The notes below the pieces were generated by a model. It did no database searches. It was not told where the DNA came from and was given only the letters and a program-made list of their open reading frames with translations. Position numbers and translations under genes: made by a program. A stretch of 37,694 nucleotides of DNA from Thermococcus sp. (lineage in GTDB: Archaea; Methanobacteriota_B; Thermococci; Thermococcales; Thermococcaceae): contig WAPO01000069.1 of the NCBI GenBank assembly GCA_015520705.1, forward strand, positions 1 through 37,694. Reading direction: 5' to 3'. Of this stretch, positions 4,589 to 28,304 are shown in pieces (the first letter of the stretch is position 1; every line of letters begins with the position of its first letter).

Positions 4589-5416
4589 ATGCTTCCACCA
4601 GAGGTTCAGGCAATCATTGAGGAGATGAGAGCCGAGCGGATTCGGGGGGCAAGCTATCTCGCCGAGAGGGGAGCGGAGGCATATCTGAAGCTCGCCCATC
4701 TATTGGATGGTGAGGAACTCCTAAGCGCACTGAAAGAAATGCAAAACGAAATCATCATGGTAAACCCAACAATGGCCTCCCTCTACAATCTGACGAGATT
4801 CATACCCCTAACGGACAACCCGGAGTTTGTTAAATCAAAAGCCGAGGAGTTCATAAAGCTCGGCAGGGAGGCGAAAAGGGAGATAGGCAACATAGGGAGC
4901 GAGCTCATTGATGAAAATGAGGTAATAATCACCCACTCCTTTTCCTCAGCGGTTCTTGAGATTTTCAGGTCTGCGAAGATGAAGGGGAAGCACTTCAGGG
5001 TTATCCTCACGGAGAGCTCTCCCGATTATGAAGGTCTGGCTCTGGCGCGGGAGCTTGAAAGGCTTGGAATTCCATTTGAAATCATAACCGACGCGCAGAT
5101 CGGGCTCTTTGCGGGGAAAGCAACAATGGCCCTTGTTGGAGCGGACAACATGACTCAGGACGGTGCGGTTATCAACAAAGCCGGAACCTACCTGTTAGCA
5201 CTGGCCTGCCACGACAGAGGGGTTCCCTTCTATGTGGCTGCTGAGAGCTTTAAAATCCATCCGGAGATCAGGGCTGAAGAGGTCGAGATTGTGGAGAGGA
5301 AGTTCAAGAGAAACCACTTCCTCATCAGGGGATATGTTTTCGACGTAACGCCGTGGAAATATGTGAGGGGAGTGATAACTGAATTTGGGGTGCTCGTGCC
5401 GCCGAAGGAGATTTAA
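4589..5416 (+). CDS. eIF-2B alpha/beta/delta-like family protein
   Basis: LTESSPDYEGLALARELERLGIPFEIITDAQIGLFAGKATMALVGADNMTQDGAVINKAGTYLLALACHDRGVPFYVAAES is the eIF2B/R15P-isomerase family signature; start at the ATG at 4589 after GGTGATTCC. Confidence 0.92.
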   Translation: MLPPEVQAIIEEMRAERIRGASYLAERGAEAYLKLAHLLDGEELLSALKEMQNEIIMVNPTMASLYNLTRFIPLTDNPEFVKSKAEEFIKLGREAKREIGNIGSELIDENEVIITHSFSSAVLEIFRSAKMKGKHFRVILTESSPDYEGLALARELERLGIPFEIITDAQIGLFAGKATMALVGADNMTQDGAVINKAGTYLLALACHDRGVPFYVAAESFKIHPEIRAEEVEIVERKFKRNHFLIRGYVFDVTPWKYVRGVITEFGVLVPPKEI

Positions 5417-17469: not shown

Positions 17470-17499
17470 GTTAAGGACAAAGAGATAACAAAAAGAAAG
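17470..17499 (-). terminator. T-rich intrinsic-type terminator region downstream of the RiPP-like operon
   Basis: Reverse strand after the permease stop contains TTTCTTTTTGTTATCTCTTTG. Confidence 0.4.
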
Positions 17500-18249
17500 T
17501 CATTTTGGAGCAACTTCTGAAGCTAGTTTTATTGACAAAATAACCAAGCTGATTCCCAAAACTATAGAAACAGCCCAAAAAGCAAGAGATATATTACCTA
17601 AAAGTAAGATGCCTCTAAGGCCAACAACATGGTATGTTAAAGGATTTATTTTTCCCAATATTTGTATCCATGCGGGAGCAGAGCCTTCAAGATAGAACAC
17701 AGGAGAAGTAAAGATTATTGGGAGATTAAGTAAAGCAAATATCATGTTTCTTGTCAATTCACCCCGTATTTTTACTCCTGTTACTATGCCCACACTTATC
17801 CAAAACATTGTCGAGATTATTAAATAAATTATAAACTGAAACAATGTCGCCAAAGATATTGATAAATTGATAAACAAAATTCCAATAAGTACTAAAAATA
17901 GAGAGACCAAAATAACAACGCTGCTCTCTACTAAAATTTTTGCAAGGATGTAACCACTTAAAGTCCCTCCACCAAGGAGAGACGTCCTTATTATTCCAAA
18001 TCTGACATCATTAAATGTCGTTGAGCTAACAACGGGATAAGAGTAAAATATTTGAATTGCAATAATACCTGGAAGAACATAAAGGAGATAACTTATGGTC
18101 TTTCCGTGATACTCAAAATTCACAGTTCTCGATAATGAGAATGCAAAAAACAGAAAGTACATGAGTGGAGTTAAAAATTGTGATATAAATCCTCCTATTG
18201 CCTCTTTCTTTAGTGATATCTCCCTATATATGAACCCATAAAGCCTCAT
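17500..18249 (-). CDS. ABC-2 type transporter permease
   Basis: About six hydrophobic segments, ABC-2 pattern (YVLPGIIAIQIFYS; NLPIIFTSPVFYLEGSAPAWIQILGKINPLTYHVVGLRGIL); ATGA overlap with the ATPase gene. Confidence 0.9.
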   Translation of the reverse strand: MRLYGFIYREISLKKEAIGGFISQFLTPLMYFLFFAFSLSRTVNFEYHGKTISYLLYVLPGIIAIQIFYSYPVVSSTTFNDVRFGIIRTSLLGGGTLSGYILAKILVESSVVILVSLFLVLIGILFINLSISLATLFQFIIYLIISTMFWISVGIVTGVKIRGELTRNMIFALLNLPIIFTSPVFYLEGSAPAWIQILGKINPLTYHVVGLRGILLLGNISLAFWAVSIVLGISLVILSIKLASEVAPK

Positions 18250-19181
18250 TTCTCAATCCCTCCGATGAGCTTTATAAATCCATCAAGCAATGTTTCCTCC
18301 TTAACAGCAATTTGAGTAATATCAAAATCAATATCCCGTAAGAACAGGAGAAGTTCATAAAATGCCGACTTATCTTCTAGCTCTACTGTATCTTCTCCAA
18401 TAATTTTCCCTAAGCTGTTGTGTTTGAGATAATTAGATAATATTTCAATAAGTTGAGGGGATAATTTCTTTTTGAATATCACCATGACTTTACCTGCATA
18501 AACATGTTTGAATTCTCTGAGAGTTGTATGAAGGATTATCTTCCCTTTATGTATGAAGACTATCTCATCAGATAAGCTCTCAACCTCCGCCATGTCGTTG
18601 GTTGTCAGGATGAAATAGTATCCTTCTTTACTCATTTCACGAATGAGATCCCATGTGATCTTTTTTCCAATAGGATCTAGTCCTAAGGTTGGTTCGTCTA
18701 TAAATATTAATTTACTTCTTGGATCTAAAAAGGCCCTAGCTAATTGTGTCCTTCGTCTTAACCCTCCAGATAGTTCAAGCACTCTTTTATGTTGATGTTC
18801 AGTTAAACCAAACATGTCAATAATGTCATCTAAGCGTTTCTCAAGTTCGTTCTTTGGGATTCCACGTATCATGCCATAGAATTTGAGATTTGTTCTGACA
18901 GAAAGTAAAACATCAAGTTCTAAGTCTTGAGCACATAATGATATCATTTCTCTAATTTTCTTTTTATCTCTAACTACATCAAGATCGAAGATTTTAGCCG
19001 TGCCTTTTTGGGATTTAAATGTAGTTGTTAATATATTGACTAAAGTAGTCTTTCCAGCTCCATTGGGTCCCAGAATTGAAAGTATGCCACTGGGTATATC
19101 TGTGCTTAAGTTTATGTCCCTCAACGCGTAGTTCCTTCCATCATAGGAAAAACTTAGGTTGCTAATTTCTAACAATGGCAT
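18246..19181 (-). CDS. ABC transporter ATP-binding protein
   Basis: Walker A LGPNGAGKTT, signature LSGGLRRRTQLARAF, Walker B KLIFIDEPTLGLDP; start at the ATG at 19181 with SD GGTGAT. Confidence 0.95.
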   Translation of the reverse strand: MPLLEISNLSFSYDGRNYALRDINLSTDIPSGILSILGPNGAGKTTLVNILTTTFKSQKGTAKIFDLDVVRDKKKIREMISLCAQDLELDVLLSVRTNLKFYGMIRGIPKNELEKRLDDIIDMFGLTEHQHKRVLELSGGLRRRTQLARAFLDPRSKLIFIDEPTLGLDPIGKKITWDLIREMSKEGYYFILTTNDMAEVESLSDEIVFIHKGKIILHTTLREFKHVYAGKVMVIFKKKLSPQLIEILSNYLKHNSLGKIIGEDTVELEDKSAFYELLLFLRDIDFDITQIAVKEETLLDGFIKLIGGIEK

Positions 19182-20604
19182 CACTATCACCTCTGGGTGT
19201 ATCCCAAAGGAAAATATCATTTGGTGTTCTTTTTGTACCATCTTCAGAATAGGGATATCTAATTATACACCTCGGATCTGCAAGTTCTGGATTTCCGAAA
19301 ACAATTTCAGAAATCATCGGGCAACCTCTTAGACAGTTGTATAAGTAGGAACATTCATTGCAAGGGGGTAAAAATTTGCTTTCCCTAAATTGACTTAGTG
19401 TTTTACTGTTTTCCCAGATTTCTTTTAGAGATTGGTACTTGAAATTACCAAAAACGTATTTTTCAGGGTGTTTTGTCATTAGTGTTCTTCCGGAGTCACA
19501 TAAGGTAACATTTCCATTTGGATAAGCTGCTATAGAGAGTATCCCAGCACTGCATGTTACTGGGATTCCACATCTGAAATAAGAAACCTCAGGCATAAAT
19601 TTTTTATCTTTGAATTTCTCCCTTATAGCGTTTTCTAACCATTTAACCTGTTCCTTAGAAGGAAGTAAGTGACGATCTGCTCTTCCTTCTGGGTAAACGA
19701 CAAATCCAACAATAGTTTCAGCTCCTAAATCATGCATGAACTCCCAAAGTTCAGGAATTTGATCAATGTTATATTTTGTTATTGTACTCCTGACATGTAT
19801 CTTAAAACCGGCATCAATTAAATTATATATTCCACAGAGAGCCGATTCTAATGTTCCATTTGGTATTAATTTTTGGTATGTTTCTGGATCAAGAGTATCA
19901 ATACTAATCTGAATTCTTCTTGCTCCACTTGCATAAAGACGCTTTGCAAATTTCTTTGTTATTCCTACAGCTTTGGTTCCAAAGATAACATGTTGGTACC
20001 CTATATCAAAAGCGTGGCGAATAACTTTAAATATATTGGAATATGCCGTTATCTCTCCTCCTGATATTCCCAAGAGTTTTGCTCCAAGTGCGCTTGCCTC
20101 TTCCAAAAGTTTCAGTGCATCATCCGTTGCCATAATTACTTCATTATCGGGTTTAAACTTTGCTTCCAATGCCATATTACAATAAGTGCATTCTAAGGGA
20201 CATCTTTCTGTAAGTATTAGCCAAAGTGCTGAAAGTTGTGAGAATCTAGTTGGAAATCTTGATATAGTCTTTCTTTCGTTGAGTATTTTTTCCTTGGATT
20301 TCATGAACTTTTTTGATTTTGTAATGTTTCCTAATTTTCTTTTAGATACAGCAATTGCATTGTTCTTATGCATAAACCTTATGAAGTTCTGAACATCATG
20401 TTTAACTTGCTCCCTTGGGACTTCGTATTTCTGAGATATAAGATTTATGATATCCTCCAAAGAATTTTCTCCAGTACATAGACATAGAATATCAAATTGA
20501 GTATAAGTGACAAACATGAATTTGTTTTCCCTTGCTTTATTTATTATAGCTCCAGCATTGGTTTCAATAAGATCAACATCCGGCCTAAGTATTGGGTATT
20601 CCAT
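19162..20604 (-). CDS. Radical SAM/SPASM peptide maturase with N-terminal PqqD/RRE-like region
   Basis: N-terminal about 90 aa resembles a PqqD-type wHTH (FDILCLCTGENSLEDIINLISQKYEVPREQVKHDVQNFIRFM); radical SAM TERCPLECTYCNM; SPASM-type C-terminus CGIPVTCSAG...NVTLCDSG...CNECSYLYNCLRGCP. Confidence 0.93.
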   Translation of the reverse strand: MEYPILRPDVDLIETNAGAIINKARENKFMFVTYTQFDILCLCTGENSLEDIINLISQKYEVPREQVKHDVQNFIRFMHKNNAIAVSKRKLGNITKSKKFMKSKEKILNERKTISRFPTRFSQLSALWLILTERCPLECTYCNMALEAKFKPDNEVIMATDDALKLLEEASALGAKLLGISGGEITAYSNIFKVIRHAFDIGYQHVIFGTKAVGITKKFAKRLYASGARRIQISIDTLDPETYQKLIPNGTLESALCGIYNLIDAGFKIHVRSTITKYNIDQIPELWEFMHDLGAETIVGFVVYPEGRADRHLLPSKEQVKWLENAIREKFKDKKFMPEVSYFRCGIPVTCSAGILSIAAYPNGNVTLCDSGRTLMTKHPEKYVFGNFKYQSLKEIWENSKTLSQFRESKFLPPCNECSYLYNCLRGCPMISEIVFGNPELADPRCIIRYPYSEDGTKRTPNDIFLWDTPRGDSDAIVRN

Positions 20605-20665
20605 CATATCACCTCCTAACTCATGAGATTAATTAATTTATTAAAAAACAAAATAAAGAAGAAAG

Positions 20666-20779
20666 TCAGAATGGAAGTGGAATGTTTATTAAACATAGGG
20701 CACACCATCTATCGTATGGCTCAATTATGCCTCCTCCAACTTTGAGGCTCATATCATATACTGGTTTTGTTTGTTCCAT
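20666..20779 (-). CDS. Candidate RiPP precursor peptide, 37 aa
   Basis: ATG GAA CAA ... TTC TGA gives MEQTKPVYDMSLKVGGGIIEPYDRWCALCLINIPLPF; SD GGAGGTGAT 4-5 nt upstream; promoter TTTATAAG upstream; about 60 nt upstream of the radical SAM/SPASM gene. Below the ORF-track length cutoff. Confidence 0.85.
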   Translation of the reverse strand: MEQTKPVYDMSLKVGGGIIEPYDRWCALCLINIPLPF

Positions 20780-20824
20780 TCATATCACCTCCATATATTT
20801 TCTGCATTACTTATTAGAAAGATT

Positions 20825-20845
20825 AAGCTTATAAATTTTTCTCTA
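20825..20845 (-). promoter_or_regulatory. BRE/TATA-like promoter for the RiPP-like operon
   Basis: Reverse strand GAGAAAAATTTATAAGCTTAA, about 50 nt upstream of the precursor start. Confidence 0.55.
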
Positions 20846-20983
20846 TAGATTTGATATACATCAAACAGTACACAAAAATGATAGAGAACAAAAGACCACA
20901 CAAACACACCAATACTTCAACTCGGATTGAAGCTGTCGCTCATTATAAATAGGATTGAGATGAAAGAAGAGTGGGTGAAGATT

Positions 20984-23186: not shown

Positions 23187-26100
23187 ATGAAGGCCGTATA
23201 CCGGGGAATGTGCCCAAACTGTGGGGATAGAATCTGCGACGAAAGGCTTTACAGAAAAAATCCCTGTGAGACGTGTCTTGACAGCGAGATTCACGCTCCG
23301 ACGTATATTGACCTGATAACTGCTGTAAGGGAAGCCCTGAAAGTAAGAGAAACCCTGAAGCAGTGGGAGGAGATTTATTTTCTTGAGACCAAACTTAGAG
23401 AGGTGGAGGACCTGTTTGAGAAGGCCACGGGCTTCACCTTCTGGAGCGCCCAAAAAACATGGGTCAAAAGGCTTGTAAAGGGAAAGAGTTTCTCTATCAT
23501 AGCCCCGACGGGCATGGGAAAGAGCACTTTCGGGGCCTTTATGGCCATCTACCATGCGATGAAGGGAAAGAAGAGCTATATGGTGGTTCCGACAACCCCC
23601 CTCGTTATTCAGACGATTAAAAAGGTCACCCAGCTGACTGAGAGGGCAGGGATCCAGATCAATCTGGCCTATTATCACGGGAATCTGAGGAAGAAGGAAA
23701 AGGAGGAGATGATTGAGAAAATAAAAAATGGAGATTACGATATCCTCATAACAAGCGCCCAGTATCTGGCCAGGAAATTTGATGAGATGTTCAGCGGGAA
23801 GCATTTTGATTTCATCTTCGTTGATGATGTGGATGCCTTCCTGAAGGCCTCAAAGAATATTGACCGCTCCCTCATCCTGCTCGGCTTCAATGAGGAAATA
23901 ATCCAGAGGGCATGGGAGATTATAAGGCTGAAGAAGCAGATGGCCAGATATCTGAACGGAAATTCAGAGGACAAAAACGAAAAGCTGAAAGAGCTGAACA
24001 GACAGATTGCGGAGATTTCACGTGAGATTGAGGAATTCAAAGAGAAAAGCGACATCGGAGTTTTAATCATAGCCTCCGCAACAGGCAGCGCCCGGGGAGA
24101 CAGGATAAAGCTTTACAGGGAGCTTCTGGGTTTTGAAGTCGGCAGCGGGAGGTCAGTTCTTAGAAACGTCGCCGACAGCTATCTGTTCCCGGCAAATGAC
24201 ATCAAAGAGCACGTTGCAGAGCTTCTCAGCAAACTCGGAAGAGGAGGGCTGGTTTTTGTCCCGATAGATCAGGGAGTGGGCTATGCCGAAGAGCTGACGA
24301 AGTACCTCCGGGAGAAAGGCCTGAAAGCCGAGCTGATTTCATCGAGGAGCAAGAAGGGTCTGGAGAAGTTTGAAAAGGGTGATGTGGATTATCTCATCGG
24401 GGTCGCCACCTATTACGGCAGCATTGTGCGCGGTCTTGACCTGCCTCACCTAATACGCTATGCCGTCTTCACGGGCGTTCCGAAATTCAGATTTTCAATA
24501 GACCTTGAGAGGCCCACCATCTACCGGGTTCTCGGGCTGATGAGTGAGGTCATGGACTTCCTCGAAGGGGATCAGAGAAAGGAGGCGGAAAAGCTCCATG
24601 CCCGTTTGAGGAGGCTCATACGGAACATCCCTCAGTTCGAGCTGCTGAAGATTGAGGAGGCTCTGGCAGAGGGCCTGCCCCTTGAGGGGTTTCACAACCA
24701 TGTTCTCGATGTATTCAAGCAGGCCGTCGAGTTTCTCAGGAAAACCCTGAAGGATGAGGCTGTTCTGAAAAGGATAGCAGAGGATCCCTTTGTAAGCCTT
24801 AAGGAAGAGGAAGGAAAGTGGTACATCGAGATTCCGGACGTTAGAACCTATATTCAGGCAACTGGAAGGACGAGCCGGCTCTTCGCCGGTGGAATCACAA
24901 AGGGACTGAGCGTTCTCCTTGTTGATAATGAAAAGGTCTTCAACGGCCTCGTCAGGCAGATGCGCTGGCGCTTCACAGAGTTCAAAATGGAGCCCTTCGA
25001 GGAGTTAAACCTTGAAGAAGTCCTGAAGGAGATAGATGAGGACAGGCTTAAGGTCAGACTCGTGATGGAGGGCAAAATAAGCCAGAAGACAAAGGATCTG
25101 GTCAAATCAGCACTCATGATAGTTGAATCACCCAACAAGGCGAGAACCATAGCAAACTTCTTTGGACAGCCGAGCAAGAGGAGGATAGGAGACTTGGTGG
25201 CGTATGAAGTCAGCATAGGGGATAGGATGCTGACCATTCTGGCAAGTGGCGGGCACATGTTTGACCTTGTGACGAACGAGGGCTACCACGGCGTTCTGGT
25301 TGACGAGAAAGACGGCATGGTGAAGTTCATCCCGATTTACGACACCATAAAGCGCTGCCGGGACTGCGGGCATCAGTTTGTCGACTGGGAGGAGAAGGGA
25401 ATCTGCCCGAGGTGTGGAAGCAGGAACGTGAGGGACGCCTTTGAGAACGTCAGAGCCATGCGCGAGATAGCCCAGGAGGTTGATGAGATACTCATAGCAA
25501 CCGACCCGGATACAGAAGGTGAGAAGATAGCCTGGGATATAAGGAACGTCCTCAGCCCCTACACACCAAACATCAAGCGCATAGAGTTCCATGAGGTCAC
25601 AAGGCCAGCAATACTCAGGGCGCTTGAGGAAGCAAGGGATGTGAATGAAGCCCGCGTCAATGCCCAGCTCGTCAGAAGAATAGAGGACAGATGGATAGGC
25701 TTTGAGCTCAGCCAGAAGCTCCAGCAGGTCTTTGAGAACAGGAATCTATCCGCAGGCAGAGTCCAGACACCCGTTCTGGGGTGGGTGATTCAGAGATACA
25801 AACAGTTCACGGAAAGCGAAACCGACTTCATGCTGCTGACACTTGAGAACGACCTCACGGTGATGTTCGAAGGTGTGAAGGAGGAGATTGAAGAGGTAAC
25901 TGTGGAGGACGTCACGATAGAGGAGAGGAAGCTCAATCCTCTGCCGCCCTACACAACCGATACAATGCTTCAAGACGCTTCCACTTTCCTGAAGCTTTCA
26001 GCGCCGGAAACGATGAGGCTTGCTCAGGATCTGTTTGAAACCGGTCTCTGTGTTACTCCCGATACCCTCGTGAGCCTTGCTGACGGCAGGATAATGAGCA

Positions 26101-28304
26101 TTAAAGACGCAGTGAAGAACTCGGAGGGCAGGTTGCTGGCTGTGAATGGTCTCAAACCCAGTGAGACAGAGGCTCTCAAATTCTGGGAGATAGACTGGAA
26201 AGGGCCGCTGAAGGTCGTGAAGCTTAAGAACGGACACGAAATAAAAGCTACTCCTGATCACGGCCTCCTTGTAATGAGGGACGGAAAGCTTGGTTGGGTC
26301 TCAGCAAAGAATGTCCAGCCCGGAGACTATCTCGCCTTTGCCTATAACACCGGGCACCCCGGTAGGGGGGAATATACCCTTCTCAGTCTTCTCGTGAAGC
26401 TCAGGATAACCGATGTCATGGTTGAGCTTGATGGAGAGTACTTCGAAAAGCTTGCCCCGCTTATAAAAGAGCGCATTAAGACCAGCACGAAATACAAATA
26501 TCTGCGCAACCATGTTCTTCCGCTGCACCTCCTCATGGAGTGGGGAGTAAAGGATTATGAACCTCACGTGATATCTCTCTACCGCCAGAGGGCTGGAACT
26601 AAGCGCATACCCAACTTCAAACTCAACGATAAGTTCTGGTATGTCTTCGGTCTGATACTTGGAGACGGCACGATAAGAGGAAGCAAGGTGCTGATTTCCC
26701 AGACCCCGCTGAAGAGGGTTAAAGGAATACTCAAGGAAGCATTCCCGTTTCTTCATGTCTTTGAGACAACCAACCAAGTGGGTTTCTCAAACTCTATACT
26801 TGCTGAACTTTTCAGACGGCTTGGCGCCCGGAAGGGTGAGCTTAATCCTCTGATATTTGGTCTGAAGGAAGAATATATTAATGCAATACTGGCAGGATAC
26901 TTTGACACCGACGGAACATTCTCGCTGCTCCATGACAAAAAAGGAGTTAACCTAAGAGCTACACTGACCTCCAAGAGGTATGATGTTCTCAAAATGTTCA
27001 GCATTTATCTGTATCAGATTGGAATACTTAACTACCTCAAGAGGGATAAGCGCACAGAAGTTTGGGATATGATAGTCAGCAACAGAAGCTTAGAACACTT
27101 CAAGAGAAAGATTTATCCCTATCTCAGAATCCGGCGGAAACAGTTTGATGATGCTTATATTGAGTACAGAAGTTCAAGAAAGCCACAGCAGGGCGACCTC
27201 ATTCCCGTTGGGGCGGTCTTTAGAAGACTGAACTTTCCACAAGGAGCCAAGAACCGGATACTGAATGAAACAGGCATTGACGTCTGGAACTGGCTGAAAA
27301 AAGATAACGGAGAGATCCCCCGGGAAAAGCTTGCCGAAGTCATTAAATATGCCAAGGACAGCAGCATAAAAGCTTTCCTTGAGTCACTTGTGAATGCGGG
27401 AGTTACTTGGATCAAAGTCAAGGAGGTAAGTGAAGCACACTACGAGGGCAGGCTCTATGACTTTACGACAACCACGGGGAACTTTCTGTCCAACGGTATT
27501 GTCTCCCACAACTGTACCTATCACAGAACCGACTCGATACACGTCAGCAATACCGGAATTGAAGTTGCCAAGGAGTACATAACCCAGGAAATCGGAGAGG
27601 AGTATTTTGCCCCGAGGAAATGGGGGGAAGAGGGCGCCCATGAGGCCATAAGGCCAACGAGGCCCATAGACACCGGAAGGCTCATGCAGCTCATCAGGGA
27701 TGGGGTAATCACCCTTGCCCGCGGGCTCACCAGAAACCACTTCAGGCTGTATGATATGATTTTCAAACGCTTCATGGCGAGTCAGATGAAAGCAGCCAGA
27801 ATTCTCCATGAAAAGGCAGTAATTGATGCAGGTATTGCCAGAGCTGAGGTCGAGGGCTACACAGAGGTGCTCTACGATGGATGGGCCAGAATAAGAAGGC
27901 TCCCCATGTGGCAGATTCCAAAGCTTGAAAAGGGGCAGAAGCTCAGGGTGAAGGAGTTCAAAAAGTGGCGTGCCCCGAAGGTTCCACTCTACACCCAAGG
28001 GGACATAATAGCCCTGATGAAGGAGAAGAAAATAGGAAGGCCTTCAACATATGCCAAGATAGTCAAAACCCTTCTGAGCAGATACTACGTCATAGAAACA
28101 CGGGGCAGGAAGAAGCTCGTCCCCACGGATCAGGGCATAAAGGTGTATCACTACCTGATAAGCAAATACAGAGACCTCGTCAGCGAGGAAAAGACCAGAG
28201 AGCTGGAGGCGCTTATGGATATGGTGGAAGAGAACAAAATTGATTACCAGAAGGTGCTTGCTGAACTGTATAATGAAATAAAGTTATACATAAATACCGA
28301 TTAA
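23187..28304 (+). CDS. rgy: Reverse gyrase (with in-frame intein)
   Basis: N-terminal zinc finger [22 protein letters not shown], Walker [18 protein letters not shown], second zinc finger CRDCGHQF...CPRCG, topoisomerase IA segments ([41 protein letters not shown]). Confidence 0.98.
26049..27512 (+). mobile_element. Intein (488 aa) with LAGLIDADG/DOD homing endonuclease
   Basis: Starts [14 protein letters not shown] and ends [12 protein letters not shown] followed by Cys (+1); DOD motifs [12 protein letters not shown] and [13 protein letters not shown]; removal restores [14 protein letters not shown]. Confidence 0.96.

Follow-up and report, generated by a model that had tools for sequence, protein, structure and literature searches.

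A 37-codon open reading frame (ORF) on the minus strand of a Thermococcus sp. contig, located at positions 20666-20779 of the window (the whole stretch of 37,694 nucleotides that was analyzed), was shown by its substitution pattern to be a conserved protein-coding gene, and it very likely encodes the precursor of a radical-SAM-modified RiPP. The cassette to which it belongs is genuine; RiPP cassettes of this general kind are known, but the present one has not been described before. The encoded peptide, MEQTKPVYDMSLKVGGGIIEPYDRWCALCLINIPLPF, was read directly from the sequence and comprises a leader-like part (M1-G17) and a core (I18-F37) containing C26/C29, Y22 and W25. A preliminary description of this DNA had proposed such an unannotated 37-residue minus-strand ORF, and its sequence, strand, start and stop were all borne out. 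On the same strand, the peptide is followed by genes for a maturase, an ABC ATPase and an ABC-2 permease and then by an acdB-type ATP-grasp gene; the first four apparently form an operon headed by the peptide. The precursor has no match to any family tested, and escapes these as well as length-filtered gene calls.

The start codon of the peptide (ATG, 20779-20777) is preceded by the Shine-Dalgarno (SD) sequence GGAGGTGAT (20784-20792, minus strand) and by the BRE/TATA-like promoter GAAAAATTTATAAG (20828-20841, minus strand), in which an A-rich BRE-like stretch precedes a TATA box of archaeal type, TTTATAAG (20828-20835). The promoter and the strong SD expected from the preliminary description could thus both be located. 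The distance between the peptide stop and the maturase ATG is 58 nt, and the maturase has its own, identical SD GGAGGTGAT at 20608-20616. Within the 37.7-kb window, only four perfect GGAGGTGA sites are followed at the correct spacing by a start codon that opens a frame of more than 8 codons, namely those of the peptide, the maturase and two further long ORFs, and the arrangement at 20666-20779 is far beyond chance. The promoter block AAAAATTTATA is shared with two related copies of the cassette (genomes G118 and G133) and with an unrelated cassette of genome G021, in each of which it precedes the peptide start by about 60 nt. A palindrome, TTTGATGTATATCAAA, is located immediately ahead of the TATA box of the peptide (20850-20865) and is a possible operator; it was not observed in the promoters of G118 and G133. 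Elsewhere in the window (23187-28304, plus strand), a reverse gyrase carries an intein, consisting of a splicing domain and a LAGLIDADG part, within its topoisomerase part.

The peptide was searched family-wide, and a close maturase was sought in 396 genomes. The latter is rare and was found in G118 (92% identity), in G116 (91%, split by an insertion) and, as a contig-edge fragment of 83 residues, in G016 (93%), and in no further genome among the 396. G118 belongs to another genus of the family, and its peptide, MEQTKPVYDMSLKVGGGIVEPYDKWCAQCLINIPLPF, which is the same in G116, is identical to that of the window at 34 of 37 positions (92%), with the replacements I19V, R24K and L28Q. The preliminary description had named a lack of conservation next to homologous maturases, or substitutions not consistent with coding, as findings that would speak against it; instead, the peptide is kept beside the maturase in G118, and the substitutions display a coding pattern. 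Between the window and G118, 14 codons of the ORF have changed, 11 of them synonymously and 3 nonsynonymously (22.5 S sites, 88.5 N sites; Fisher P = 4.4e-7), resulting in a pN/pS of 0.069 as compared to 0.15 for the maturase pair; this test is based on G118 as the one independent full-length orthologue, since the G116 copies are DNA-identical to those of G118 and add no independent data. The family-wide search also yielded shortened peptide copies in G133, G120 and G109. Matches in G103 and G105 proved to be unrelated upon reading of the sequences, and weak matches (E 0.03-1) in the first 101 genomes were rejected as chance; these genomes gave no true orthologue because the orthologues belong to other genera of the family. 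Single-protein scans of genome contigs and viral contigs revealed no maturase relative, and a tblastn search of plasmids returned PqqE-level matches only, at less than 30% identity.

The maturase (481 residues; 19162-20607, minus strand) was identified by Pfam domains, by an alignment of invariant cysteines and by fold matches to SuiB, PqqE and SkfB. It consists of a PqqD-type RRE (residues 40-85; PF05402, E 7.4e-8, 33.1 bits with a cutoff of 23.4), a radical SAM domain with CX3CX2C motif (131-289) and a 7-Cys SPASM domain (352-447, of which the Pfam match covers 352-419). The CX3CX2C motif and all seven SPASM cysteines are intact, and C136, C140, C143, C352, C370, C416, C419, C425, C429 and C447 are invariant among the Thermococcus relatives, in agreement with the radical SAM/SPASM gene with PqqD-like N-terminus that had been predicted to adjoin the peptide. 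The protein scored below the cutoff of every NCBIfam model, the top match being PqqE (115 bits; TIGR02109 cutoff 381), while the WgkB model gave 85 bits (cutoff 650) and the StsB model (NF045574) 69 bits (cutoff 625). PqqE was also the best sequence match among solved structures in the PDB (E 7.6e-19). The ABC exporter genes predicted to follow were identified by domain matches as a DrrA-like ATPase (18246-19241, minus strand), whose true start is likely at about 19181 (SD-ATGCCATTGTTAGAA), and a DrrB-like ABC-2 membrane permease (17500-18249, minus strand). Neither a peptidase domain in the transporter nor a protease gene in the cassette was found.

For structural modeling by AlphaFold, a natural TGA read-through of G118, which places peptide and maturase in one frame, served as input. 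In the resulting model (mean pLDDT 74, pTM 0.74), the N-terminal domain of the maturase is RRE-like, with a winged-helix pattern of three strands and three helices, and the fold matches were led by SuiB with SuiA (5v1t, E 3e-17), followed by PqqE, SkfB and CteB. When leader docking was sought in this fusion model, the peptide was disordered and the leader undocked (leader pLDDT 26-34). At the sequence level, the leader TKPVYDMSLKVG resembles TKPSFEDLRLG of Rahnella PqqA (shuffle P 0.025). For PqqD-like RREs, the motif W/Y/LxxP/L/I was reported in a recent survey (PMC12710340). The window peptide fits this motif loosely only (Y8xxxL12), and the W-type peptides described below approach it (FEEP).

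As in the PQQ system (PqqA-PqqD-PqqE), the cassette combines a short precursor bearing a TKPxF/Y...LxxG leader-like segment with a PqqD-type domain and a radical SAM-SPASM enzyme with two auxiliary cluster sites. However, its PqqD domain forms one protein with the maturase, the cassette includes an ABC exporter, the core lacks the Glu/Tyr pair of PQQ, and there is no PqqB/C. The maturase shares the order of N-terminal RRE, radical SAM and SPASM domains with SuiB (streptide) and the Lys-Trp (WGK) cyclases, in whose systems an exporter is located nearby, but the identity is only about 16% and the window core has no Lys-Trp motif. The sactipeptide and ranthipeptide enzymes SkfB, CteB and StsB are likewise RRE-bearing radical SAM-SPASM proteins acting on Cys-containing peptides; in contrast to their substrates, the window peptide has only two cysteines, arranged as CxxC, and no SCIFF or six-Cys arrangement.

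Comparison with G118 further indicated that the cassette is mobile. The region 17485-20847 (minus strand) forms a continuous DNA match of 87.6% to G118, which begins shortly before the TATA box, ends 15 bp beyond the permease and thereby contains exactly the promoter, the peptide, the maturase and the two ABC genes. The window cassette adjoins acdB and the G118 copy a phosphorylase gene that by eye is MTAP-like, hence the shared block moves as one unit. In the other Thermococcus genomes sampled, a divergent gene (by eye, MuiA-like in some genomes and Cas6-like in others) starts immediately ahead of acdB and no cassette intervenes, identifying the cassette as an insertion at this site. The four genes were shown not only to move but also to decay together; the decayed copies have lost the core and/or the maturase. 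In G120 and G109, leader remnants remain (MEQTKPIYDMSLKMGVGIMP and MEQTKLVYDISIKVGG, each followed by a stop). In G116, a transposase-like insertion (L173 6854-7365) splits the maturase, and the peptide and ABC genes are intact. In G133, which carries its copy at the acdB site, a deletion extends from the core (..EPYDKWCAQ, then a stop) to the end of the maturase and leaves both ABC genes intact. The ABC genes of the G133 lineage display 64 synonymous versus 8 nonsynonymous single-base codon changes, a pattern compatible with ongoing selection for the transporter, although part of this lineage may predate the deletion. The retention of a constrained ABC pair without core or maturase suggests that the transporter gives immunity.

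Further cassettes were identified by searching 61 genomes of the genus for PqqD and SPASM domains and reading the regions upstream of divergent maturases (20-28% identity), which turned out to be directly preceded by short SD-preceded ORFs of their own. Like the window cassette, these have a promoter, a short SD-preceded peptide, a radical SAM/SPASM protein and then an ABC or MFS exporter; as the identity between maturases is limited to 20-28% and their peptides have different cores, they represent parallel families and not orthologues. The short ORFs next to SPASM proteins that the preliminary description had suggested to look for are thus present in both the G118/G116 orthologues and unrelated cassettes. 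The G021 peptide contains ..PIPICMACCLLGGGGVNPY, and that of G022 ..ILCWKCLLNW... In G007, two tandem Cys-rich precursors, ..PFVCVSCLLCVSG.. and ..PFICKGGCVVCAAG.. (L070 4967-5107 and ~5122-5261, plus strand), precede one maturase and an ABC pair and may possibly form a two-component peptide. Peptides of the WxxWxxWGK type, with TQWxxWxxWGK cores, were found in G057, G025 and G016 (L064 5765-5863, plus strand; L065 8435-8545 and L121 5147-5251, minus strand) next to a PqqD-radical SAM-SPASM protein and an MFS-like transporter, in cassettes using the same MTAP-side hotspot as the window-type copy of G118. Finally, 26-residue peptides with an identical C-terminal NAGCYHWNSHDSVGL occur in G021 and G007 (L157 4488-4568, plus strand; L159 4611-4691, minus strand) upstream of 80%-identical radical SAM/SPASM proteins. 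The pN/pS was 0.069 for the latter pair (NAGC) and 0.076 for the W pair of G025 and G016; none of the eight peptides tested matched NCBIfam. The peptides of G021, G007 and G022 share a CxxC followed by hydrophobic residues, a recurrence that is suggestive only, as CxxC arose in 6-13% of shuffles at each peptide's Cys content. For two SPASM proteins, in G010 and G025:C30, no credible precursor was identified upstream, and therefore the short-ORF rule is not universal. The window's own genome harbors a second candidate RiPP cassette (L120, G000:C67; 3472-3576 and 3649-6470, plus strand) with the peptide MNDPKEIPQIVEEETEEWTFSDTQKGNEKWGSIL, two radical SAM/SPASM proteins and an MFS-like protein.

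Taken together, we propose that the N-terminal KPVYDMSLKV of the precursor binds the PqqD-type RRE of the maturase, which would then introduce cross-links into the core EPYDRWCALCLINIPLPF, with C-S thioethers from C26 and C29 as the most likely bonds. A host protease would remove the leader, perhaps near the GGG; this segment, previously noted as hinge-like, is kept in the full-length orthologues and may serve as a cleavage site. The ABC-2 pair would export the product, which is its most likely fate, and protect the producer, and the product may be directed at close relatives, either like a bacteriocin or as a signalling peptide. We give the Cys thioether chemistry about an even chance and a competitive role of the product slightly less than that. 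The same cassette might instead modify aromatic residues, through cyclophane (C-C) or C-O bonds (Tyr22-Asp-Arg24, as suggested in the preliminary description, or Trp25-Cys-Ala27), the cysteines staying free or forming a disulfide. The core does contain YDR or YDK along with WCA, Y22, D23 and W25 are kept in the orthologues, with R24 becoming K, and the Trp-rich TQWxxWxxWGK cores of other cassettes would suit such chemistry. However, the transporter-linked relatives share CxxC and not YDR, and the maturase scores below the cutoff of all NCBIfam models. As CxxC recurs in independent Thermococcus cassettes, the thioether is favored and aromatic cross-links appear rather unlikely.

An intracellular redox cofactor or metal-binding peptide, similar to PQQ or mycofactocin, would be in line with PqqE being the closest match in both sequence comparisons, although far below the NCBIfam cutoff, with the PqqA-like leader and with a CxxC that could bind metal. 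We nevertheless regard such a product as improbable, as a PqqB/C-like or oxidoreductase partner is missing, the ABC-2 exporter belongs to the transferred unit, and the distribution is very patchy, decay being frequent and one copy retaining only the transporter. That the ORF is merely a translated leader or attenuator controlling the maturase operon, or a chance ORF, could be considered from its shortness and its first position close upstream of the maturase. This is largely refuted by the substitution pattern, which reveals conservation at the amino acid level across genera including the C-terminal core; moreover, repeated regulatory codons are absent and equivalent peptides occur in independent cassettes, leaving this possibility extremely improbable.

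In the open-access literature on radical SAM RiPPs of Thermococcales, no described system was found, and such RiPPs appear to be little studied in hyperthermophilic archaea; passages of a survey of archaeal dark matter mention radical SAM enzymes and not precursor peptides. The heat-stable RRE-radical SAM-SPASM enzyme with its 37-residue substrate is practical for structural and enzymatic work, and the transporter-only copy of G133 makes the exporter's role testable. Judging from the genomic data, it is very probable that the heat-loving archaea harboring the cassette produce cross-linked peptides of a hitherto undescribed type. More tentatively, and with less than an even chance in our estimate, the Thermococcaceae may hold a diversified, horizontally moving arsenal of radical-SAM-modified peptides whose cores include the CxxC and WxxWxxWGK types among others, and which would be produced near boiling and used in competition. 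If so, immune-only derivatives of the G133 type would represent producer-cheater dynamics in hyperthermophilic archaea.
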